From Acidobacteriota bacterium (lineage in GTDB: Bacteria > Acidobacteriota > Thermoanaerobaculia > Gp7-AA8): DNA of 64,000 nt. Location: NCBI GenBank assembly GCA_021325515.1, contig JAJPHC010000024.1:62001-126000 (forward strand), in the 5' to 3' direction. The notes under the pieces were generated by a model. That model was not told where the DNA came from. It saw only the letters and a program-made list of their open reading frames with translations, and did not search any database. Shown here one piece after another: positions 26,487 to 52,931 of this stretch. Every line of letters begins with the position of its first letter. The stretch's first letter is position 1. Made by a program: the position numbers and the translations under genes.

Positions 26487-26818
26487 GGAAGTGATGATTG
26501 TAAGTGGAGTGCGGACGCCTCGTCCGCACATCGTGATGCTCCCTGTCCTCCGCCGCGGCAAGGGCGAGACCGGCAAGAGGAACCCCGCGCCGTACTGATG
26601 TTAAGAGTGGAGTGCGGACGCCTCGTCCGCACATCGTCAATTCATGTGCGGACGGGGGCGTCCGCACTCCTCCGCCGCGGCAAGGGCGAGACCGGCAAGA
26701 GGATTCCCGCGCCGTACTGATGTTAAGAGTGGAGTGCGGACGCCTCGTCCGCACCCCACGTCGATCATGTGCGGACGAGACGTCCGCACCCCACGTCGAT
26801 CATGTGCGGACGAGGTGG
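26487..26818. repeat. Cluster of GTGCGGACGAGGCGTCCGCAC palindromic repeats with an 87-bp duplication
   Basis: Six copies of a palindrome whose core is GTGCGGACG, a short centre, CGTCCGCAC: about 26506-26529, 26609-26632, 26646-26670, 26731-26754, 26769-26789 and a truncated copy from 26804. An 87-bp block is directly duplicated at 26546-26632 and 26668-26754 with only two mismatches; it also carries GCAAGGGCGAGACCGGCAAGAGG. The cluster fills the gap between marC and addA, and the last copy encodes the C-terminal residues and stop of addA. Another copy lies in the addA frame at 28050-28073. Irregular spacing and palindromic units argue against CRISPR. Confidence 0.9.
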
Positions 26819-40335: not shown

Positions 40336-41133
40336 ATGACAGCGATCGAATATCCGCCTGTTGCCCGCAATGCGCGGACGCATCGGACCATTGATTTCTA
40401 TGCGGCGGGAGAAGCTGGCGCGGCGCTGCGCGCTGCGGCGGCAGCGACCGGCGATCCGCTGCTCGCGGCGGCCAGCGCGTTGCTTCAGGATTCCGGCGAT
40501 GCATCCGCCGCGGATCGCCTCCGCACTGCGGTGATGTCGCCGGACGTTCTCGCGATCATGCCGCAGTGGATCCGCGAATTGCGCGAAGTCGCCTCGGTCT
40601 CGCCCGACAGCGGCGCATGCACCGTCGCCACGGCGCTGAAGCTCTGGCTCTGGACGGCACGGCATTTCCGTTCCGGCGAATTGCCGGTCGTCTTCGACGA
40701 GCTTGGGGAGACGCTCGCTGCGCTGCTCGCCGCGCGCTGTCTCGCGCTCGATGTCGCGATTCACACCGATGAGCTGCGCCGCGATCTTTCGCATGTCTAC
40801 GCCGCGCGCGTTTCCGCAACGGCCGGCGCTTCCTGCGCGGAGCTCGTCTTCGGCTATCGCCGCCACCTCGTGTGGGATGAAGAAGGCTGCGCCGCGTGCT
40901 ACAGCAGCGAAGAGCTCGATGGCCTCGAGGCCTTCCTGCCTGGTTTCGCCAGCGGCGGCCGCAGCACGATGGACGTCATCGAATCGGATGGCTCGCATCC
41001 GGCGAAGCGCGGCCCATGTGCAAACTTCAATGGACTCGACATGTTCGTCGGACTGCGCAACCAGCTCGATGCATGTCTGACCGGCGCACGCATCGCGAAG
41101 GATCGCGCCGCCGCGATCATCGGGAGGGCCTGA
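40336..41133 (+). CDS. Protein of unknown function upstream of an acyl-CoA dehydrogenase
   Basis: 265 residues, soluble, no signal peptide, Ala-rich and mostly helical by eye. Cysteines are clustered in DEEGCAACYSS (about residues 182-192) and a further Cys lies in GPCANF, so a metal site is possible. No family is recognised. Its TGA overlaps the ATG of the acyl-CoA dehydrogenase gene (TGATG), so the two proteins are probably made together and may form a complex. A CRP-like site precedes it. Confidence 0.6.
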   Translation: MTAIEYPPVARNARTHRTIDFYAAGEAGAALRAAAAATGDPLLAAASALLQDSGDASAADRLRTAVMSPDVLAIMPQWIRELREVASVSPDSGACTVATALKLWLWTARHFRSGELPVVFDELGETLAALLAARCLALDVAIHTDELRRDLSHVYAARVSATAGASCAELVFGYRRHLVWDEEGCAACYSSEELDGLEAFLPGFASGGRSTMDVIESDGSHPAKRGPCANFNGLDMFVGLRNQLDACLTGARIAKDRAAAIIGRA

Positions 41134-42686
41134 TGACAAGGCTCGATCCGGGTGATCTCGAGCTCATCGTCGACACGCTGAAGGACTTCACCGATCGCAA
41201 TACGCCGCTCGAGCAGCGGATGCATTGGGATGAAACGGACACCTGTCCCGCCGATGTTGTGCGGGCGATGCTCGGACCCGAAGTCGGACTCCATCTGCCG
41301 TTCCTGCCCGCGGAGTATGGCGGGATGGGGGGCGGCGCCTACGACATCTACCGGCTGTCGTGCGAGTTCGCGCAAATCGATCTCGGACTCGCGACGTCGA
41401 TGCTCGCTGTCGCACTCGGCACCGATCCGATCCGCGTCGGCTGCACGGAGCCCCAGAAGGCGAAGTGGCTGCCGCGCATCGCAGGCGAAGGCCTGATCGT
41501 CGCGTATGCCGTCACGGAACCGGAAGCGGGATCGAATGTGCAAAACGTGCAGACGCAGGCGAGGCCGGTCACCGATGCCGCAGGCAACGTCACGCACTAC
41601 TCGCTGAACGGCGTGAAGCAGTTCATCTCCAACGGTTCGATTGCCGATCTCTACACCGTGCTCGCAAAGGCGCCCGGCGGTCCTTCGTTTTTCATCGTCG
41701 AGCGTGGCACTCCCGGACTCACTCCGGGGAAACATGAAGTGAAGCACGGCATTCGTCTGTCCGACACCGCGCAGGTGATCTTCGAAGATGTGATCGTGCC
41801 CGCCGATCAGTTGATCGGATCGAAGGAAGGCGAAGGTCTCTCACAGGCCAACGAAGTCTTCGGCTTCACTCGTCTCATGGTTGCCGGCTTCGGCCTCGGC
41901 GCCGGCATTCGCGCGTTGAACAAGGCGATCGCGTATTCGAAACAGCGGCGCCAGATGGGCACGCTGCTTTGTGAGAAGCAGGGATACACACACAAGCTGC
42001 TCGTGCCGAACAGCGTGCGGCTCGCCGTGGCGCGCGCCTACATCGAGCACGTCGCCGATCTGCTCGACAACGGCACGACGGATCGCCAGATCGAAGGGGC
42101 GATCGCCAAGATCTTTGCGACCGAGGCGGGGAACATCGCGGCGGATGACGCGGTGCAGGCGCTCGGTGGTTATGGGTACTGCGTCGAGTACGAGGTGGAG
42201 AAGATCCGCCGCGACGCGCGCATTCTCCGCATCTACGAAGGAACGACGGAGATTCTGCAGAACATCGTCGGTCTCTATCGCATGCGCGAGAGTGTGCGCA
42301 GCAAGGGAACGTACTACGGCGCGATGGCGGATCAGGTCGAGCCGTTCGCGGACGCAGGCGGCGCCGCCGTCGCGCGCACCGCGCGATTTCTGTCCAGCGC
42401 ACTCGACCACATCTTTCGCGAGAAGGTCGCGCGCCAGCAGTACGTGCTGTTCGAGGCCGCGACGTCGATCGTCGAAGTCGAAACGGCAGTGGCGATGGTG
42501 CGCGCAGCCGGCATCTCCGGCGACGAGCTGCTGAAGGCGCAGTCGCGCGTCTGGGCGCGCGAGATCGCGCTGACGGTGCCAATGCGCTTCGCGCGCGTCA
42601 CCGACGGCCTGCCGTTCGCGCTCGACTCACAGGAAGGCCGCCTCGCCGACATGGACCTGATCGCGAAGCAGATCACCTCTCCTTAA
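41133..42686 (+). CDS. Acyl-CoA dehydrogenase
   Basis: 517 residues. FAD and substrate motifs: AYAVTEPEAGSNV, the LNGVKQFISNGS stretch, the FGFTRLMVAGFGLG helix and ALGGYGYCVEYEVEKIRRD followed by IYEGTTEIL, whose Glu is the catalytic base position. The protein exceeds the usual 380 residues by a C-terminal extension of about 120 residues, as in long-chain or VLCAD-like and DUF1974-bearing members. It oxidises acyl-CoA to trans-2-enoyl-CoA. The TAA stop lies in the TTAA that begins the long inverted repeat at 42683. Confidence 0.9.
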   Translation: MTRLDPGDLELIVDTLKDFTDRNTPLEQRMHWDETDTCPADVVRAMLGPEVGLHLPFLPAEYGGMGGGAYDIYRLSCEFAQIDLGLATSMLAVALGTDPIRVGCTEPQKAKWLPRIAGEGLIVAYAVTEPEAGSNVQNVQTQARPVTDAAGNVTHYSLNGVKQFISNGSIADLYTVLAKAPGGPSFFIVERGTPGLTPGKHEVKHGIRLSDTAQVIFEDVIVPADQLIGSKEGEGLSQANEVFGFTRLMVAGFGLGAGIRALNKAIAYSKQRRQMGTLLCEKQGYTHKLLVPNSVRLAVARAYIEHVADLLDNGTTDRQIEGAIAKIFATEAGNIAADDAVQALGGYGYCVEYEVEKIRRDARILRIYEGTTEILQNIVGLYRMRESVRSKGTYYGAMADQVEPFADAGGAAVARTARFLSSALDHIFREKVARQQYVLFEAATSIVEVETAVAMVRAAGISGDELLKAQSRVWAREIALTVPMRFARVTDGLPFALDSQEGRLADMDLIAKQITSP

Positions 42687-42787
42687 GTTGGTTTTCGGGG
42701 GTCACACCTGGAAAATCAACTTAACTCGCGAACGTTGGCACGCCGTTAAGTTGATTTTCCAGGTGTGACCCCCGAAAACCAACTTAA
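42683..42787. repeat. Perfect 42-bp-arm inverted repeat with 21-bp loop
   Basis: Left arm 42683-42724 and right arm 42746-42787 are exact reverse complements, each beginning TTAAGTTG and ending CAACTTAA; the loop is CTCGCGAACGTTGGCACGCCG. Within each arm is GGGGGTCACACCTGGAAAA. The outer TTAA of the left arm contains the stop of the acyl-CoA dehydrogenase and the outer TTAA of the right arm contains the stop of the convergent HzsA-related gene. Arms this long and perfect point to a recently acquired mobile (MITE/REP-like) unit that may act as a bidirectional terminator. Confidence 0.93.
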
Positions 42788-44907
42788 CGGGCGGCGCGGC
42801 GTCTTGGGGTGGCGGGTTGCGACGATTTCCAGGCTCGCAGCAGCGAGCGGAGGGCTTCCGGCGAGTTCGTGGGTGGTGCGGCTCCCGTCTGATCCTTCGT
42901 GTTGACGCCGTGACACGAGCCGCAGACGCGGACCTCACTCGGCTGGAACGTCAGCCAGTAGCGCTCGCGCACGACGGGCGTGCCGCCCGGATCGGTGAGC
43001 TGCCAGCTCATCGCGCGATGCGCCGGCACGAGCGCGGCGAATGAGCCGTCGCTCGCGATCTGCACGCTCGACGGCGACGCGTCGTGCATCGTGCGCGCAA
43101 GCACCCGCCGTCCTTCGCGCGGCGACTTCGTTCCGCCGAGTCCCCGCACCTGATCGCCCTGGAAGAGCTGCAGTTGCGCGACGTCGAACGTCTTGCTGTT
43201 TCCGGCGATCCTCTGCGTCGAGGTACCCGCGACGCGCAGGTTGTACGGCTGCTGTTTGTCCGCCGCATCGCGCGTCGTCACATTGCGGCTGACGATCATC
43301 GCGAGATTGCGCGCGGCGAGGCTCGCGCGGAACGCGGCAGGATCGACATTCTCTTCGCGGAAGATCTTCGCCTCCGGCTCATCGAGCGGGGTCGTGCGCC
43401 GCGCGGGCCGCGTGCGCGCCCGCACCTCCACCGGATTCAACTCCCACAGTTCCCCGTTGTACGTCACGAGCGCGTCGGGGTCGTAGTACGACACATTGGC
43501 CTGAATGCCCGGCGTCAGCGGGTCGCCCGGAACATACGTCCCGTTCTGCGCGGCCATCATTCGGATGCGAAATCCATAGCGCGACTTCGGCGCCGTGCGC
43601 GAGCCTTCATTCGCGTCTTCGCGCAGCTCGCTCGCATGCACCGCGAGCAGCGTTCCATCCGCCAGCGGCAGCGGATCGCGATAGTGGCCGGACGCATCGG
43701 CGGGCGCGGCTCCTTCCGGGATGTCGCGCGTCGATCGCGGCGTGATGTACGTGATTGCGATTTTGTCCGCGGTCCGCGACGGCTCGGCCGCGAAGCTCAC
43801 GATCTGCCCCGATCCATGCGTGCGGAACTCCGGCGCATCGACGGCGTAGTACGTTCCCGGCTGCGCCGGCGATTCGCGGATCTGCAGCACGTTCTCGACT
43901 TCGTTTTTGTTCGCACGATTCGCGCTCACGCCGTAGAACTCGGAAAGCCCCGCGTCATTCATGCTCACATCGAAGTAGTTGAACAGCTCATGCCGTCCGA
44001 TGTGATTGATCGTCTCCTCGGACGTCCCATCCTCGTTCATTTCCCAGGGAAAGAACTGGTTGATCGAGATTCCCTGCAGATTCGTGCCGGCCAGCAGATC
44101 GGTGCGGCTGCTGCGCGGCTCCGGAAAAATCTCGACGCGCTGCTCGAGCCGCGCCGCATTCGCCGACTCGTCCGCGTAGTCGAATGTCCCGTAATCCCCA
44201 CCTTCGACTGCATCCGCGTCCGCCTGCTGATCGCGCTGCAGATGATCCCAGCGCGTGAAGATCACGCGGCCGAAGCTGTCGATCGACGGCGTGAAGAGCC
44301 CCGACGGCGTGTGGTTGAGCAGCTTGAGATCGCCGCTGTTCGGATCGAGACTCCAGAGGCCGGTGACGACGGGCGCCTCCTCATATTCATCGAGCTGCGG
44401 ATAGAGATGACGCTCGCCGTTGCGCGGGCGGTCGGAGGTGAAGAGGATGCGATCGTCGGTGCCGTAGAACGGACTGACGTTGTTGTAGTTCGCCGGCTGA
44501 TTCGGAATTCTGCGGATCACCGGCGTTTCGTTCTCGCCGAGGCCGGTGATTTCGTAGATTTGCCAGTGGTAGGTTTCCCAGACGTACTGCTGCGTCGGCG
44601 CGCCGGTCACCATGCTGAAGAGCGCCTTCGTTCCGCTCCAGTGCACGGCAGGCTCACGGACAGCGATGGAGCTCTTCCCCTGCATGCCGCTGTTGCCGTA
44701 GCCCGCCGCGCGCGTCAGGTTCTTCAGCGTCCCGTCGGGATAGCGAATCCAGAGATCGCCGCCGCGCGGCGCCTCGGCGACCGCCGCCTGCTGATTGCCG
44801 AACGTCGACGCGACCGTCGTGAAATCCGCCGGTACAGGCACCTGCGTCACGAACAGGATCGGGTTGGCGAGCGCGGCAGCCAGGATCAGCGATTTCATCG
44901 CCTTCAT
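42784..44907 (-). CDS. HzsA-related secreted PD40/cytochrome c protein
   Basis: About 707 residues. N-terminal signal-like segment (MKAMKSLILAAALANPILF), with a second ATG at 44898 preceded by GATAAT seven bases upstream. The middle contains PD40/beta-propeller blades (YGTDDRILFTSDRPRNGERH and FGRVIFTRWDHLQRDQQ), and the C-terminus one CxxCH heme motif (CGSCHG). Architecture and motifs match HzsA-related proteins, homologous to the alpha subunit of anammox hydrazine synthase but widespread outside anammox bacteria; hydrazine chemistry should not be assumed. It is divergent from the giant protein gene across 107 bp. Confidence 0.72.
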   Translation of the reverse strand: MKAMKSLILAAALANPILFVTQVPVPADFTTVASTFGNQQAAVAEAPRGGDLWIRYPDGTLKNLTRAAGYGNSGMQGKSSIAVREPAVHWSGTKALFSMVTGAPTQQYVWETYHWQIYEITGLGENETPVIRRIPNQPANYNNVSPFYGTDDRILFTSDRPRNGERHLYPQLDEYEEAPVVTGLWSLDPNSGDLKLLNHTPSGLFTPSIDSFGRVIFTRWDHLQRDQQADADAVEGGDYGTFDYADESANAARLEQRVEIFPEPRSSRTDLLAGTNLQGISINQFFPWEMNEDGTSEETINHIGRHELFNYFDVSMNDAGLSEFYGVSANRANKNEVENVLQIRESPAQPGTYYAVDAPEFRTHGSGQIVSFAAEPSRTADKIAITYITPRSTRDIPEGAAPADASGHYRDPLPLADGTLLAVHASELREDANEGSRTAPKSRYGFRIRMMAAQNGTYVPGDPLTPGIQANVSYYDPDALVTYNGELWELNPVEVRARTRPARRTTPLDEPEAKIFREENVDPAAFRASLAARNLAMIVSRNVTTRDAADKQQPYNLRVAGTSTQRIAGNSKTFDVAQLQLFQGDQVRGLGGTKSPREGRRVLARTMHDASPSSVQIASDGSFAALVPAHRAMSWQLTDPGGTPVVRERYWLTFQPSEVRVCGSCHGVNTKDQTGAAPPTNSPEALRSLLRAWKSSQPATPRRRAAR

Positions 44908-45014
44908 TATCGGGCCCGGCCATCGCGAAAACGTGCGCCCCGTCACCGCGGGAGCAGGAGCGAGGCATACAATGGCGAGGGTTTCCGGACAATTCGACTT
45001 TCTCGGAGGTGGCC

Positions 45015-48000
45015 GTGCGTTCCAACGTACTGAAGCTATCCTTTGGCGCGAGCCTCGCTGCAATCGCCACTCTCGCTGCGGTTACGCTGCTCTTCACGGC
45101 AGCGCCTGCGCAGGCGACGACGTATGTGACCTCGAGCAGCGGCTCGTGGAACCAGCCGACGGTCTGGACTCCGAATGGGATTCCCGGCGCATCCGACACG
45201 GCGACGATTCCCTGCTGCTTCACCGTCAATCTCGACAGCTCGCGAAGCATCGGCAGCCTCTCCGTCGCCGGAACGCTCAATCTCTCCACCTTCACGCTGA
45301 GCGCGACGAACGCGCCGAGTCTCACCGGCACGATCTCCGGAACGAGCCCCGGCAAATTGACGATCAGCGGCACGGGCGACTGGTCGGCCGGCACGTGGGA
45401 CAGCTCGGGAACGGTGGAAGTCCTTCCCGGCGGAACGCTGACCATCAGCAGCGGATTGGCGAAGACGCTGCAGAACGGTTTTCAGTTGGTGGCGAGCGGC
45501 AACGTCGTCTGGAGCGGCGGAACGATCCTGGACAACACCGGCAGCCTGATCTCGATCCCCAGCGGCGGTGTCTTCGACTGCCAGAGCGACAACACGATCG
45601 CGCAGAACTCCGGCAACGGCTCCGTGATCAACAGCGGCACGTTCCAGAAAACGGCGGGCACCGGCACGACGACGGTCAGCTCCGGCGTTCCCTTCTCGAG
45701 CAGCGGGCGCCTCCAGGGTTCCTCGGGCAGCTTCGATATTCAATCGCTCACGCTGAACAGCGGCGCGATTCTCGGCAACGGATTCTCGATCAACAGCGGC
45801 ACGACGAGAATCGGCGGCGCATCGCAGGTCGAATCGGGAGCGACCGTCACCTTCAACGGCGGAACGCTCGCCGGTCCGCTGAGCGGCTCGGCCGGTCTAA
45901 CCGTCAACGGCACCCTCAACTGGACGGGCGGCACGATGGATGGTGCGGGCGGCAGTGTGACGATCGCCGCCGGCACCAACTCGACGATCAGCGGCGGAAC
46001 GACCAAAGTTCTCTCGAACAGTTTTCAATTGATCATCCCCGGCACGATGACGTGGACCGGCGGATCGATTCTGATCAACACGACCAGTCTGCTCAGCATC
46101 CCGAGCGGCGGCGTCTTCGATTGCCAGAACGACGGCGTGATCTCACAGAACTCCGGCAACGGCTCGATCAGCAACAGCGGCACGTTCAAGAAGACCGCCG
46201 GTCCCGCAACGGCGACAGTCGGCTCCGGCGTGCCGTTCACCAGCGACGGGCGGATTCAGGTCTCCAGCGGCAGCTTCGACATCCAGAACCTCACGCTCAA
46301 CACCGGCGCGATTCTCGGCAACGGCTTCTCGATCAACAGCGGCACGACGACGATCGCCGGCGCTTCGCAGATTGAGAACGGCGCGACCGTCACACTTGCC
46401 GGCGGCACGCTCTCCGGAACGTCGACTCTAACCGTCAACGGCACCCTGAACTGGACGGGCGGCGTGATGAACGGCGCCGGCGGAGCCGTCAGCGTTCCGG
46501 CGGGAAAGATGCTCAACATCAGCGGCGCCGCAACGAAGACGATGCAGAACGGTTTCCAGGTCCTCGTCTCCGGAACCGCGACGTGGAGCGGCGGCACGAT
46601 CCTCGACAATACCGGCAGTCTGCTCAGCATTCAGAGCGGAGGTCTGTTCGACTCGCAGGCGAACAACTCGATCACGCAGAATTCCGGCGCCGGCTCGGTC
46701 TCCAATGCCGGCACGTTCCGCAAGACGAATGGCGGCGTCGATGTCGTCGGCTCCGGCGTGCCGTTCGACAACAGCGGCGTCCTGCAGGAGATCTCCGGCA
46801 CCTTCAACATCCAGACGTTGAATCTTCACCCCGGCTCGGTCATCGCCGGACTGACGATCAGCAGCGGCACGACCTCGGTTCTCGGCGCGTCGACGGTGCA
46901 GACCGGAAAGACGCTCAGCATGACCGGCGGCACGCTCAACGGAAGTGCGACGCTGACCGTCAACGGCACGCTCGATTTCAGCGGCGGTGCGATGTCGGGC
47001 GGCGCCGTCGTCGATGTCGTCTCCGGCGGCTTGTTCCTCTTCAGCGGCACAGCGACGAAGACGCTGCAGAACGGCTTCGATCTGAATGTCTTCGGCACCG
47101 CGCGCTGGACCGGAGGCTCGATCCTCGACAACACCTCGACGACGTTCGATATCCAGCCCGGCGGCACGTTCGACATCCAGACCGACGACGTGATCACGCA
47201 GAATTCCGGCAACGGCACGATCAGCAACGCCGGCACGATTCTCAAATCGGCAGGGACGGGCGCCGCGGTCGTCGCAGCGGGCGTTCCGGTGACGAGCTCC
47301 GGCGCGATCAATATTCAGAGCGGGACGTTCTCGGCCGCGAATCTCACACTGGCCGCCGGCACGACGATCGCGGGTAGCGGCCTCACGATCAACAGCGGCA
47401 CCACCAGCGTCAACGGCGCGTCCACCGTGCAGAGCGGAGCGACGTTGAACCTCGCTTCTGGAGGAGTGCTCGGCGGGGGAGCGGCGCTCACGGTCAATGG
47501 AACGCTGTCGTGGACGGGCGGCACGATGGATGGCCTGAACGCCAGCGCGACCATCGCGTCCGGCGGAGTGCTGAACATCACGACCGCAACGACCAAGGTG
47601 CTGAGCAACGGCTTCAATCTGAACATCGCCGGCACCGCGAACTGGAGCGGCGGCACGATTCTCGACAACACCGGAGCGGTGCTGCACGTGCTGTCGGGTG
47701 GCCTGTTCAATTCGCAGAGCAACGACGTCATCACGCAGAACTCCGGCGCTGGGACGATCGTCAATGACGGGATCTTCCGCAAGTCGGCAGGCGGCGGAAC
47801 GACGACGACCGGCGCCAGCGTTGCCTTCGCGAACAACAACCGCATCGAGATCATCAACGGCAATTCCGATTTTCAGAATCTGACGCTGAACAACGGCTCT
47901 GTGATCTCCGGCAGCGGATTCACGCTCGTCAACGGCACGACGAACATCGCCGGCCCGAGCTCGGTCGAAGCGGGAGCGACGATGACGATCGCGAGCGGCA

Positions 48001-51000
48001 CGCTCTCCGGCACCGCCGATCTCGCCATCAACGGCACGTTGAACTGGACGGGCGGCGTGATGAACGGCGCCGGTGGCAGCGTCACGATCGCCAGCGGAAC
48101 CACGTCAACCATCAGCACCGCCACGACCAAGGTGCTGCAGAACAGCTTCACGCTGAACGTGGCCGGGACGCTCAACTGGACCGGCGGGACGATCCTCGTC
48201 AATACGAGCAGTCTGCTCAACATTCAATCGGGCGGCGTGTTCGATTCGAAGTCCGACGACGTGATCACGCAGAATTCGGGAGCGGGGTCGATTACCAATG
48301 CCGGAACCTTCCGGAAATCGGCCGGCACGGGGACGACCACCATCGGTGTCAACGTTCCCTTCTCCAACAACGCCCGCATCGACATCACCTCCGGTACCAG
48401 CGATTTCCAGCAGCTCTTCCTCAACAGCGGTGCGTTCATCACCGGCAGCGGCTTCCGCGTCGCGAACGGAGCGACGACCATCTCCGGACCCTCCTCGGTG
48501 CAGAGCGGCGCGACGATGACCGTCGCCGGCGGAACGCTCAATGGCAGTTCGACTCTAACCATCAACGGCACCCTGAGCTGGAGCGGCGGTACGATGGACG
48601 GGGGAGCGACCCTCGCCGTGGCTCCCGCCGGTGTGGCGAATCTCATCGGCACCACGAAGGTGTTGTCGAACGGGTTCTCGTTCAAGAACGGCGGCACCGT
48701 GCATTGGACTGCCGGATCGATTCTCGATAACACCAGCGCGATCCTGCACAACCTGGCGGGCGGCGTCTTCCAGATCGAGTGCGATGACGTGATCACGCAG
48801 AACTCCGGCGCAGGCTCGATCCTCAACGCCGGCATCCTGCGCAAGCTAACCACCAGCGGCACCACGACGATCGGCAGCGGCGTTCCCTTCACCAGCACCG
48901 GCGAGATCGACATGCAGACCGGCATCCTGCAGGTCACGAATCCAACGTTCAACAGCACGTCCGTCCTCCGCGCCAGTCTCGCCGGCACGACCGCGCTGAC
49001 TCAGTACGGCCGCCTGGCGGTCACCGGCGCCGTCTCCATCAACGGCACGCTCGCCGTCAGCCTCCTCGGCGGCTACACGCCGAACAACGGCGACAGCTAT
49101 ACGCCGCTCACCTTCGCATCGCGCGGCACCACCGATTTCAGCGGAACCAGTTACCAGCCCTACGGCGGCGGCAGCGGCGGAACGTTTACCTACAGCTACA
49201 CCCCCTCGTCGCTCGTGCTCACGGCGGTTGTCAGCACCGATCTCTCCGCCAGTCAGAGCGCGCCGGCCAGCGTGCTCCACGGCCAGAACGCGACGTTCAC
49301 CATCACGGTCAGCAACAATGCTCTCGCGAACGCGACGAACGTCGTCCTCAACGACACCTTCTCCGGCGGGTCGTTCGTTTCCGTCACTCCGAGCAGCGGC
49401 ACTTGCAGCGGCACAGGTCCCATCACCTGCAACTTCGGCACGATTCCGGTCAACACGAGCGTGACCGTCACGCTCGTCCTCAACGCGAATGCGGTCGGCA
49501 CGATCACGAATACCGCGAGCGTCACGGCGACGGAGTCGGATCCGAACACGACCAACAACACGGTGACGAACAACGTGACGGTGAATCCCGACGCCGATCT
49601 GTCGCTCGCGATCACCGACGCTCCCGATCCGGTCAATCCGGGTGCGAGCACGACCTACACTGTGACGCTGGCCAACGGCGGACCCGATGCCGCATCGACG
49701 GTCAGCGTCAGCCTCACACTCTCGGGCGGAACGATCGCCAGCGTGACGAGCGGCTCGTTCAGTTGCAGCGTTGTCGGTGCAGTCTCGACGTGCTCCGCGG
49801 CGAGCCTTGCTCCCGGTTCCTACACGATCAGCCTGACGGGAACGGCCGGGGCGAGCGGCGTGATGACGCTCAACGGCAGCGCGAGCTCAACGACCGCCGA
49901 TCCTGCGCCGGGCAACGAAAGCGCGTCGCAGTCGACGACGATCAACGCGACCGATCTCTCGATCGTGAAGAGCGGACCGTCGACGGCATTGCCGGGCTCG
50001 CAGATCACCTACACGATCTCCGTCACGAACCTCGGGCCGATCGTCGCGAATGCAGTCGTCGTCGATGACATCCCGCCGTCGCGCCTCACCTTCGTTGCGA
50101 ACAGCGGCGCCTGCACGACGCCCTTCCCCTGCACGATCCCGTCGCTCGCCGTCGGACAGACGATCACCATCTCGGCGAAGTACACGGTCGGGCAGACGGG
50201 CGCCAGCCCGATCACGAACGTCGCGAACGTCACTGCATCGACCGCCGATTCGAATGCGTCGAACAACAGCTCGTCGAAGACGACCACCATCGGATGTCCG
50301 ACGACGATTCCGAACACCGTGGCTCCTGCCGATGGCGCGACAGGTATCGCGACGAGCGGCACGCTCAACTGGGCCGCCGCCGACGCGCTCGCGTATCGCA
50401 TCTTCCTCGGTCCCGCGGGCAGCGGATGCAGCATCGAGTTCGGATCGTCCGGCACGAACAGCATCGCGTATTCGGGACTCAATCCCGGCACGGACTACGA
50501 GTGGCGCGTCGAAGCGCTGCGCTCCGGCTGTCCGGTGCGGACCTCTTCCTGCTCGAAGTTCCGAACTGCATCGAGTTGTGTGACCGCGCCGCCCGTGCTG
50601 CTCGCGCCGGTGAACGGCAGCGCCGCGCTCTCGCCGGTCGAGTTCAAGTGGAGCAGTGTGGCCAATGCGACCGAGTATCAGCTCTGGGTCGCGACGGGCA
50701 GCGGCGCTGCCGTCAAACTGGCGACGACGGCGACGACGTCGTTCATCGCGACGATCGACGACGGACCGGCGCAGTGGTACGTCATCGCGATCACTCCCGA
50801 TTGCGGCGCGCTGCAGTCGGCGACCGGCTCGTTCAACAATTGCAATCGTCCCGTCGCGCCCATCGCCAGCGTCGTCGGCGCGGCAACCTCGGGGCAGACT
50901 TACAAGGTCGAATGGAACGCGGTGCTCAATGCCGTGAGCTATGAGCTCGAGGAGTCCGAGACCGAGGATTTCAGCGCGCCGCTGAGGAAGAGCCTGACGG

Positions 51001-52931
51001 CGAGGAGCGTGCCGTTCACGCACATCACCGATGTCAGCAAGGCGTTCTACTACCGCGTGCATGCGTTCAGCGCATGCACGAGTGAGCCCGGCCCGTTCTC
51101 GGAGCCGGTGCGCGTCGTCCTGATTCCGCTGCCGGCGCGCACGCAGAAGAATCCCGCCGTCAACGTTCCCGCCGGCAACACCGACAAGGTCGTGCAGGAA
51201 GTCTTCATTCCGGGCCAGGCTAACCAGACGTTGCAGTTCACCGCGACTGTCGACCGGCCGTGGCTGACCGTCGCGCCGGCGAATGGTCCGCTTCCGCCGG
51301 AAGGTGTGACGCTGAAGATCACCGCCTCGCCCGGCGTGCTGCCGAACGGCACGTTCACGGCGTCGCTCATCGTCGTGATCACGACGCCTTCCTCCTCGCG
51401 CTACGGCGCGCAGGGTTCGTCGACGGTCACCGTTCCCGTGTCGGTCAATGTCGTGACACCCGTTTCGCCGGTGCCGCAGAAGAACGCCCCATCCGCGGAC
51501 TCGTTGATCATTCCGAGCATCGGCCACCTCGATGGCATCAACTCGCATTGGCAGTCGGACATCCGCGTGACGAACATCGGCGGCCAGTTGCAGAAGTACG
51601 CGCTGATCTTCTCGCCGTCGGATCCGAAGGCCGGCGTGAAGCAGACGACGATCGACGTCGATGCCGGCGCGACGACCGCGCTCGATGACATCGTCCGGAA
51701 CTGGTACGGCATCGGGACGCTCGGAGATGCCGCGAGCGGCATCCTCGAGATCCGGCCGCTTACCTCTGCGGCCAAAGGCCCGGAGGCGACGACGCCTTCC
51801 GTATCGCGGGCGACACTGGTCTCGAGCCGCACCTACAACGCGACCTCGGCCGGAACGCTGGGGCAGTTCATCCCGGCGATTCCCTACACGAGCTTCATCG
51901 CCAAACCGTCGCAGGGCTCGTCGCCTCTTCTCAGCCTTCAGCAGATTGCGCAGTCGAGCGCATTCCGTACGAACGTCGGACTGATCGAGGGGTCGGGGCA
52001 GAGCGCTTCCGCAGTTCTCGCGGTGTTCGACGATGCTGCAAAGAAGCTCCTCGAGCTGCCGTTCGATCTGAAGGCTAACCAGCAGTTGCAGCTCAGCGGC
52101 CTCCTGGCGCAGAACAACATCTCGCTCAAGGACGGCCGGATCGAAGTGCGGGTCACGAAGGGCGACGGCCGCGTGACCGCCTACGCCTCGACGATCGACA
52201 ATCTGACCAACGATCCGCTGCTCGTTGCACCCGTGCAGATCGGACAGACGCTCGCGTCGAAATGGGTCGTGCCCGGTGTCGCGGACCTCACGAACTCGAT
52301 TGCGCACTGGCAGACCGACATGCGTCTTTTCAACAGCGGTGCGAGTCCGCAAACCGTCACGCTCACATTCCTGCCGCAGGGCGGCGGCGAGCCCGCTTCG
52401 GCGTCGGTCACGATTCCTCCATCTCAGGTCGCAGCGCTCGACGCGATCGTCTCGTCGCTCTTCGGCAAATCGAACGCCGGCGGCATGGTGCAGGTGACTA
52501 CGCCGGCCGATGCGCCGCTGATCATCACCGGCCGTACCTACAACCAGACGGGCAACGGCACGCTGGGGCAGTTCACGCCGGCGGTCACGCTCGCGGATGG
52601 TGCAGCGGCCGGCGGCCGCAGCCTCAACATCCTGCAGGTCGAAGACTCCGTTCGCTATCGCACGAACCTCGGCCTCGCCGAGTTGAACGGCAAGCCGGTC
52701 ACGGTCGAGGTCCAGGTCGTTCTGCCCGACTCGAAGGTCACGCCCACGGTGCAGATCCCGCTGGCCGCGAACGAGTTCCGCCAGTCAGCGATCATCCGCG
52801 AGCTCGGCCTGGGCAACGTCTACAACGCGCGCATCAACATCCGAGTGATCGGCGGAGATGGCGTCGTGACCGCGTATGCGTCGGTGATCGACCAGGAGAC
52901 GCAGGACCCGACGTACGTAGCCGCGCAGTAG
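45015..52931 (+). CDS. Giant secreted repeat protein (beta-helix repeats, DUF11, FN3-like, BACON-like domains)
   Basis: 2,638 residues from the GTG at 45015, five bases after GGAGG. A signal peptide ends near AQATT. Residues about 150-1315 contain seven degenerate copies of a 172-182-residue unit with the core NWTGGTILxNT, SGGVFD, VITQNSG, NAGTFRK, SGVPF, very Ser/Thr/Gly/Asn-rich and suited to a right-handed beta-helix. Then come three DUF11/CARDB-like domains (about 1410-1750), two or three FN3-like domains, a BACON-like domain (VDRPWLTVAPANG) and repeated C-terminal domains with INSHWQSDIRVTN and IAHWQTDMRLFN. It ends VTAYASVIDQETQDPTYVAAQ. Likely a surface adhesin or matrix protein. Confidence 0.85.
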   Translation: MRSNVLKLSFGASLAAIATLAAVTLLFTAAPAQATTYVTSSSGSWNQPTVWTPNGIPGASDTATIPCCFTVNLDSSRSIGSLSVAGTLNLSTFTLSATNAPSLTGTISGTSPGKLTISGTGDWSAGTWDSSGTVEVLPGGTLTISSGLAKTLQNGFQLVASGNVVWSGGTILDNTGSLISIPSGGVFDCQSDNTIAQNSGNGSVINSGTFQKTAGTGTTTVSSGVPFSSSGRLQGSSGSFDIQSLTLNSGAILGNGFSINSGTTRIGGASQVESGATVTFNGGTLAGPLSGSAGLTVNGTLNWTGGTMDGAGGSVTIAAGTNSTISGGTTKVLSNSFQLIIPGTMTWTGGSILINTTSLLSIPSGGVFDCQNDGVISQNSGNGSISNSGTFKKTAGPATATVGSGVPFTSDGRIQVSSGSFDIQNLTLNTGAILGNGFSINSGTTTIAGASQIENGATVTLAGGTLSGTSTLTVNGTLNWTGGVMNGAGGAVSVPAGKMLNISGAATKTMQNGFQVLVSGTATWSGGTILDNTGSLLSIQSGGLFDSQANNSITQNSGAGSVSNAGTFRKTNGGVDVVGSGVPFDNSGVLQEISGTFNIQTLNLHPGSVIAGLTISSGTTSVLGASTVQTGKTLSMTGGTLNGSATLTVNGTLDFSGGAMSGGAVVDVVSGGLFLFSGTATKTLQNGFDLNVFGTARWTGGSILDNTSTTFDIQPGGTFDIQTDDVITQNSGNGTISNAGTILKSAGTGAAVVAAGVPVTSSGAINIQSGTFSAANLTLAAGTTIAGSGLTINSGTTSVNGASTVQSGATLNLASGGVLGGGAALTVNGTLSWTGGTMDGLNASATIASGGVLNITTATTKVLSNGFNLNIAGTANWSGGTILDNTGAVLHVLSGGLFNSQSNDVITQNSGAGTIVNDGIFRKSAGGGTTTTGASVAFANNNRIEIINGNSDFQNLTLNNGSVISGSGFTLVNGTTNIAGPSSVEAGATMTIASGTLSGTADLAINGTLNWTGGVMNGAGGSVTIASGTTSTISTATTKVLQNSFTLNVAGTLNWTGGTILVNTSSLLNIQSGGVFDSKSDDVITQNSGAGSITNAGTFRKSAGTGTTTIGVNVPFSNNARIDITSGTSDFQQLFLNSGAFITGSGFRVANGATTISGPSSVQSGATMTVAGGTLNGSSTLTINGTLSWSGGTMDGGATLAVAPAGVANLIGTTKVLSNGFSFKNGGTVHWTAGSILDNTSAILHNLAGGVFQIECDDVITQNSGAGSILNAGILRKLTTSGTTTIGSGVPFTSTGEIDMQTGILQVTNPTFNSTSVLRASLAGTTALTQYGRLAVTGAVSINGTLAVSLLGGYTPNNGDSYTPLTFASRGTTDFSGTSYQPYGGGSGGTFTYSYTPSSLVLTAVVSTDLSASQSAPASVLHGQNATFTITVSNNALANATNVVLNDTFSGGSFVSVTPSSGTCSGTGPITCNFGTIPVNTSVTVTLVLNANAVGTITNTASVTATESDPNTTNNTVTNNVTVNPDADLSLAITDAPDPVNPGASTTYTVTLANGGPDAASTVSVSLTLSGGTIASVTSGSFSCSVVGAVSTCSAASLAPGSYTISLTGTAGASGVMTLNGSASSTTADPAPGNESASQSTTINATDLSIVKSGPSTALPGSQITYTISVTNLGPIVANAVVVDDIPPSRLTFVANSGACTTPFPCTIPSLAVGQTITISAKYTVGQTGASPITNVANVTASTADSNASNNSSSKTTTIGCPTTIPNTVAPADGATGIATSGTLNWAAADALAYRIFLGPAGSGCSIEFGSSGTNSIAYSGLNPGTDYEWRVEALRSGCPVRTSSCSKFRTASSCVTAPPVLLAPVNGSAALSPVEFKWSSVANATEYQLWVATGSGAAVKLATTATTSFIATIDDGPAQWYVIAITPDCGALQSATGSFNNCNRPVAPIASVVGAATSGQTYKVEWNAVLNAVSYELEESETEDFSAPLRKSLTARSVPFTHITDVSKAFYYRVHAFSACTSEPGPFSEPVRVVLIPLPARTQKNPAVNVPAGNTDKVVQEVFIPGQANQTLQFTATVDRPWLTVAPANGPLPPEGVTLKITASPGVLPNGTFTASLIVVITTPSSSRYGAQGSSTVTVPVSVNVVTPVSPVPQKNAPSADSLIIPSIGHLDGINSHWQSDIRVTNIGGQLQKYALIFSPSDPKAGVKQTTIDVDAGATTALDDIVRNWYGIGTLGDAASGILEIRPLTSAAKGPEATTPSVSRATLVSSRTYNATSAGTLGQFIPAIPYTSFIAKPSQGSSPLLSLQQIAQSSAFRTNVGLIEGSGQSASAVLAVFDDAAKKLLELPFDLKANQQLQLSGLLAQNNISLKDGRIEVRVTKGDGRVTAYASTIDNLTNDPLLVAPVQIGQTLASKWVVPGVADLTNSIAHWQTDMRLFNSGASPQTVTLTFLPQGGGEPASASVTIPPSQVAALDAIVSSLFGKSNAGGMVQVTTPADAPLIITGRTYNQTGNGTLGQFTPAVTLADGAAAGGRSLNILQVEDSVRYRTNLGLAELNGKPVTVEVQVVLPDSKVTPTVQIPLAANEFRQSAIIRELGLGNVYNARINIRVIGGDGVVTAYASVIDQETQDPTYVAAQ
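45454..48960 (+). repeat. Seven tandem 515-545-bp coding repeats
   Basis: Coding repeat units begin near 45454, 46000, 46530, 47045, 47590, 48125 and 48650. They are divergent enough that protein similarity is clearer than DNA identity, although short DNA strings such as CTAACCGTCAACGGCACC recur. Expansion or contraction by recombination is possible. Confidence 0.8.

Follow-up and report, generated by a model that had tools for sequence, protein, structure and literature searches.

In E. coli and other bacteria, REPs near stop codons affect translation. Their position adjoining the 3' ends of genes, at distances under 20 bp, was described by Di Nocera et al. (2013; PMC3733652), and REPs of the GTAG type were found to supply a TAG stop codon often. 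The same study describes the TIRYT/TIRtron tyrosine transposases, which are flanked by GGGGWSAS terminal inverted repeats; several TIRtrons are from Acidobacteria, and some have moderately abundant dispersed copies. In a later survey, most TIRYTs were assigned to TnpA_Y1 subclass 2.1, and no REP-like sequences were found beside subclass 2.1 genes (PMC6006769). REPINs are known from Pseudomonas fluorescens (Bertels and Rainey 2011; PMC3116915).

The DNA analysed here, referred to as the window, is a stretch of 64,000 nucleotides. Between two convergent genes at 42683-42787 it contains two exact 42-bp inverted arms separated by a 21-bp loop, and the stop codons of both genes lie within the outer TTAAs, exactly as an earlier note on this DNA had claimed (Table 1). 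That note missed a palindrome at the level of the single arm: each 42-bp arm on its own is imperfectly palindromic, its 14-bp stem having one mismatch and enclosing a 14-nt loop. Since each arm is thus a REP-like hairpin, the arm pair has the structure of a REPIN, and we consider it very probable that the feature belongs to a RAYT-linked family of 94 copies. Folded as RNA, the whole element forms a single continuous hairpin of -80.5 kcal/mol (z -16). A search against Rfam gave no match to a known RNA family.

Table 1. Positions of the repeat element, the flanking genes and the linked transposase gene (window coordinates unless another contig or locus is named)
Feature	Position	Strand	Remarks
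Left REP-like arm	42683-42724	+	42 bp, TTAAGTTGGTTTTCGGGGGTCACACCTGGAAAATCAACTTAA; 5' GGGGG-side end outward
Core of left arm	42697-42715	+	GGGGGTCACACCTGGAAAA
Loop of the putative REPIN	42725-42745		21 bp, CTCGCGAACGTTGGCACGCCG
Right REP-like arm	42746-42787	-	Exact reverse complement of left arm; core at 42755-42773
TAA stop of acyl-CoA dehydrogenase gene	42684-42686	+	Within outer TTAA of element
TAA stop of convergent right-hand gene	42784-42786	-	TTA on forward strand; within outer TTAA of element
Acyl-CoA dehydrogenase gene, left flank	41133-42686	+	ACAD N, middle and C-terminal domains; start (41133) predicted from codon usage
Right flanking ORF	42784-45063	-	Longest ORF, matching the HZS_alpha middle domain weakly; codon usage puts the uncertain true start at about 44265
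IS200-like Y1 transposase (RAYT)	C40:246875-247828 (L047:1873-2832)		319 aa

Two further observations concern other parts of the window. A 2640-aa ORF at 45009-52931 has many repeated segments and, judged by eye, apparently encodes a large surface- or adhesin-like protein. A 28-bp stretch, GCCGTACTGATGTTAAGAGTGGAGTGCG, occurs twice in identical form, 122 bp apart, at 26601 and 26723.

The core of the arm was found in 94 copies in the 5.38-Mb genome (at most 3 mismatches), most of them exact, and a reversed control pattern gave no match in the same genome. Hence, the window hairpin is not a product of chance. When every copy was read, the copies fell into 55 arrays, namely 28 of the type +-, 4 of the type ++-, one +--, one -- and 21 singles. 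Arm mismatches are absent in 14 of the 33 inverted pairs, so the perfect arms of the window locus are typical of the family. The near-identity of the copies makes a young age plausible, and concerted evolution could also account for it.

The inner ends of the copies are nearly constant (CTTAAC), and nearly all copies have TTAA at the outer end. At about half of the 5'-outward ends the TTAA is preceded by CG, whatever the gene context. Consequently, the complete end of the element reads about CGTTAAG, its outer boundary being ragged, and gene ends reading CGT-TAA look element-derived. The ends of the copies are CGTTAAG...CTTAACG, and the full end of the 42-bp hairpin is about CGTTAAGTTGG...CAACTTAACG. 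The gaps between neighbouring REPs, inverted or tandem, measure only 2-4, 7-11, 20-21 or 31-32 bp and lie near multiples of 10.5 bp with a vector strength of 0.84 (39 gaps, L023-L071). The motif CGGCGTGCCA, present on one strand of the window loop, is common to many other 21-bp loops of the genome, which points to common descent as part of the reason for this pattern; the other length classes are not obviously covered by it. A pattern scan of contigs from other genomes gave mostly single matches in unrelated phyla, which are probably due to chance. Among related records that bear the core are assemblies of Acidobacteria and Thermoanaerobaculia, which makes an Acidobacteria-like host likely.

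Seven matches to Y1 transposases were found in the same genome. One of them, here termed the RAYT, is bracketed by the repeat in inverted orientation, with one + copy upstream and two - copies downstream; the nearer downstream copy overlaps the gene and provides its stop codon. The protein matches Pfam Y1_Tnp, the NCBIfam model REP_Tyr_transpos (NF047646; E 1.7e-21, 76.7 bits against a curated cut-off of 80) and the TnpA_REP structure 4er8 of the PDB (E 1e-4). It carries the HUH motif NHYH at residue 59, FQ (FQGRF) at 98 and YLVLNP with the Tyr at 119, followed by a long C-terminal extension. A C-terminal HTH was not detected in it; of its homologues, the one at L087 matches Bac_DnaA_C with a score above the cut-off of that model, and the one at L074 gives a weak HTH match. 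Homologues of the RAYT exist in 37 of the 39 genera searched. Many full-length ones adjoin GGGGTCA[G/C] repeats of their own, and where these occur on both sides they are inverted and usually share the same variant tail. At six homologue loci (L078, L081, L082, L085, L090 and L099) the transposase stop codon is a TGA inside the downstream TGACCCC. That gene and repeat recur side by side in different genera is our main argument that transposase and repeats belong together. Separately, a second Y1 transposase in the C51:603131-603451 region (L010) lies amid several GGGGTCAGACCT/GGGGTCAGGCCT repeats on both strands; since these repeats surround the gene, the genome probably holds a second RAYT/repeat set.

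The family has what characterizes REPIN/RAYT systems: a short, high-copy repeat that occurs chiefly in hairpin-forming inverted doublets, and a cognate Y1 (HUH) transposase gene with copies of this repeat on its flanks. As in P. fluorescens, inverted doublets dominate a genome-wide population, the spacer is less conserved and a RAYT is associated, whereas the present family has 42-bp arms, loops in the four length classes given above and no GTAG foot. A GT[AG]G foot of the classical GTAG/GGAG kind is absent from the ends of the copies, and therefore the family is not a canonical GTAG REP in spite of its REPIN organization. Inverted GGGGTCAC repeats on both sides of the Y1 transposase fit the GGGGWSAS definition of TIRYTs. 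For this reason the family appears to match the known TIRYT/TIRtron type, as judged by the repeat motif and by a comparison of transposases at the level of motifs. Further shared properties with TIRtrons are moderately abundant dispersed copies, which occur as singles, dimers and groups, and a repeat that extends into the 3' end of the transposase gene. In contrast to TIRtrons, almost all copies here are near-identical and hairpin-forming, and most arrays supply stop codons of genes; the remark on stop codons in PMC3733652 refers to GTAG REPs and TAG, not to the GGGGWSAS type. The RAYT resembles TnpA_Y1 subclass 2.1 in its NHYH, FQ and Y---NP motifs and its long C-terminal extension, but here a 94-copy hairpin family accompanies it. 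Like the REPs near stop codons of E. coli and other bacteria (PMC3733652), the copies are found at 3' ends of genes; unlike in those, the element brings its own TAA, and this stop falls at the native C-terminus.

For all arrays the adjacent genes were called by a codon-usage model trained on the window. It assigned a gene that points away from the element to 40 of the 110 array sides, and some of these calls may be wrong. The TAA of the outer TTAA is the stop codon of a gene at 41 sides, which belong to 36 of the 55 arrays, in 5 arrays on both sides. The preference for gene ends proposed in the earlier note is therefore strong, and the note's view of a possibly mobile element is supported, since the family is dispersed and apparently mobile. 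The genes that run into an element do so in frame b in 41 cases, in frame a in 12 and in frame c in one or two (p 5e-10 versus equal frames). Frame b would meet the TAA at once, and frame a would reach a stop after 2 or 13 residues; the third frame is mostly open. In seven frame-a genes, at L024, L036, L042, L056, L057 and L058, the predicted, repeat-encoded tail ends in GVTPG(K/N)ST and is usually the 13-residue LSWFSGVTPGKST. The other five end through TTAAGTTGA. The TTAAGTTGAG variant, which causes an early frame-a end, occurs in two copies only, both of them in frame-a genes. A further 14 genes stop 3-230 bases before an array. By their C-terminal sequences, several of the genes whose stop codon lies in the element look like those of Era, ArgJ, ClpB, TypA and YbeY.

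None of 117 element-free genes ends in NNTTAA, as opposed to 42 of the 56 genes that abut an element. Outside the elements, TTAA occurs 5 times in the window and 7 times in 178 kb of loci. A pre-existing TTAA at native stop codons is thus an unlikely target. Depletion of TTAA is not special to the source genome, since sister genera are similarly depleted.

A search of six sister genomes with C-terminal segments of the flanking proteins gave usable orthologues for 16 families. The median difference in protein length lies between -3 and +2 residues in all 16 families and within one residue in 13; the orthologues stop with TGA (43), TAG (18) or TAA (10). In G009, the orthologue of the acyl-CoA dehydrogenase (80% identity) terminates in HAITA-TGA compared with KQITSP-TAA in the window, so that its TGA is one codon earlier, and no element follows the gene. 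Orthologues of the right-hand gene share 60-75% identity; those at L177 and L185 have a TGA two codons later, and the 47 bases displayed beyond it contain no element. The arms are neither unique in the genome nor conserved at this locus in these relatives, the two findings that, according to the earlier note, would have spoken against a mobile element. The cross-genus comparison of the orthologous locus, which that note had suggested, found no element beyond either gene. Since the orthologues end at the same place without an element at the window locus, the element appears to have replaced the native stop codons almost without truncation. A native stop codon on the far side was not visible in the single elements inspected, which implies some loss at the junctions. 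In the sister genus G001, about 13 loci carry two related repeats, several of them 0-20 bp past native stop codons, as in AAC TAG followed directly by TTAAGTTGGGGTCACATC, which begins TTAAG; docking at gene ends is thus wider than the source genome. The G001 orthologues of two flanking genes (L027L and L051L) also end at repeats, but at other versions of them; a shared ancestral insertion is one possible reading of these two cases.

We favour, on the evidence of sequence, a mobile repeat that survives where it is harmless. As in RAYT/REP and TIRYT/TIR systems, the Y1 (HUH) transposase would copy the family in the form of single-stranded DNA, and copies would persist where the element itself closes the reading frame at the native C-terminus. 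A clean, lossless insertion would leave the native stop codon beyond the element; small deletions or another route would therefore be needed. When transcribed, the inverted pair would give each of the two convergent mRNAs a very stable 3'-terminal hairpin, which may influence mRNA decay or termination.

That the RAYT machinery targets stop codons, or a motif concentrated there, with the TAA of the element replacing the stop and protein length being kept, is a different view of the insertion rule and does not touch the identity as a REPIN; the alternative to it is random insertion followed by selection. Such targeting would readily account for the narrow placement within 3 residues of the orthologue ends in 16 of 16 families, for the arrays whose TAA serves both flanking genes and for the G001 repeats next to native stops, and the near-identical copies would have left little time for selection. 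Against it stand the 12 frame-a genes with their tails, some arrays located 3-32 bp downstream of intact stop codons and the rarity of TTAA at native stops, where it could hardly be the target; the confinement of TTAAGTTGAG to two frame-a genes is what selection would predict. On balance, we regard targeting of stop codons as a serious but rather unlikely explanation.

A function for the host has also to be weighed. If the element were a host-made bidirectional transcription terminator or 3'-end stabilizer that had spread and been retained in this role, its mobility being secondary, its position would make sense, since convergent genes flank 24 of the 55 arrays and a further 21 have one incoming and one outgoing neighbour, and so would the stability of the hairpin. 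However, the T-run that follows the G+C-rich hairpin of an intrinsic terminator was looked for and is lacking, as is any terminator-like site; the 42-bp unit also occurs singly and in triplets, a transposase gene is bracketed by the repeat, and the repeats of sister genera differ and occupy few sites. We consider this origin improbable, and a role as a double terminator, as suggested in the earlier note, would be conjectural. Its narrower form, an ordinary intrinsic terminator unique to the gene pair of the window, fits the position between two convergent genes, but it is refuted by the 94 genome copies; the absence of the element after the orthologous genes and again the missing T-run also speak against it, and it can practically be dismissed.

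With the mobile repeat as the preferred reading, the genome holds a large REPIN-like population tied to the GGGGWSAS/TIRYT branch of Y1 transposases, and in about 41 cases, 16 of them with orthologues, a mobile hairpin would have become the stop codon of an ordinary gene. These takeovers are unusual in their number and precision, and so is a clear hairpin population on the TIRYT branch. The family thereby offers a testable case of how bacteria tolerate small mobile DNA, either through aimed insertion or through selection for the right protein end. If targeting of stop codons proved true, the mobile element would carry its own safe-harbour rule, with gene ends as the harbour.
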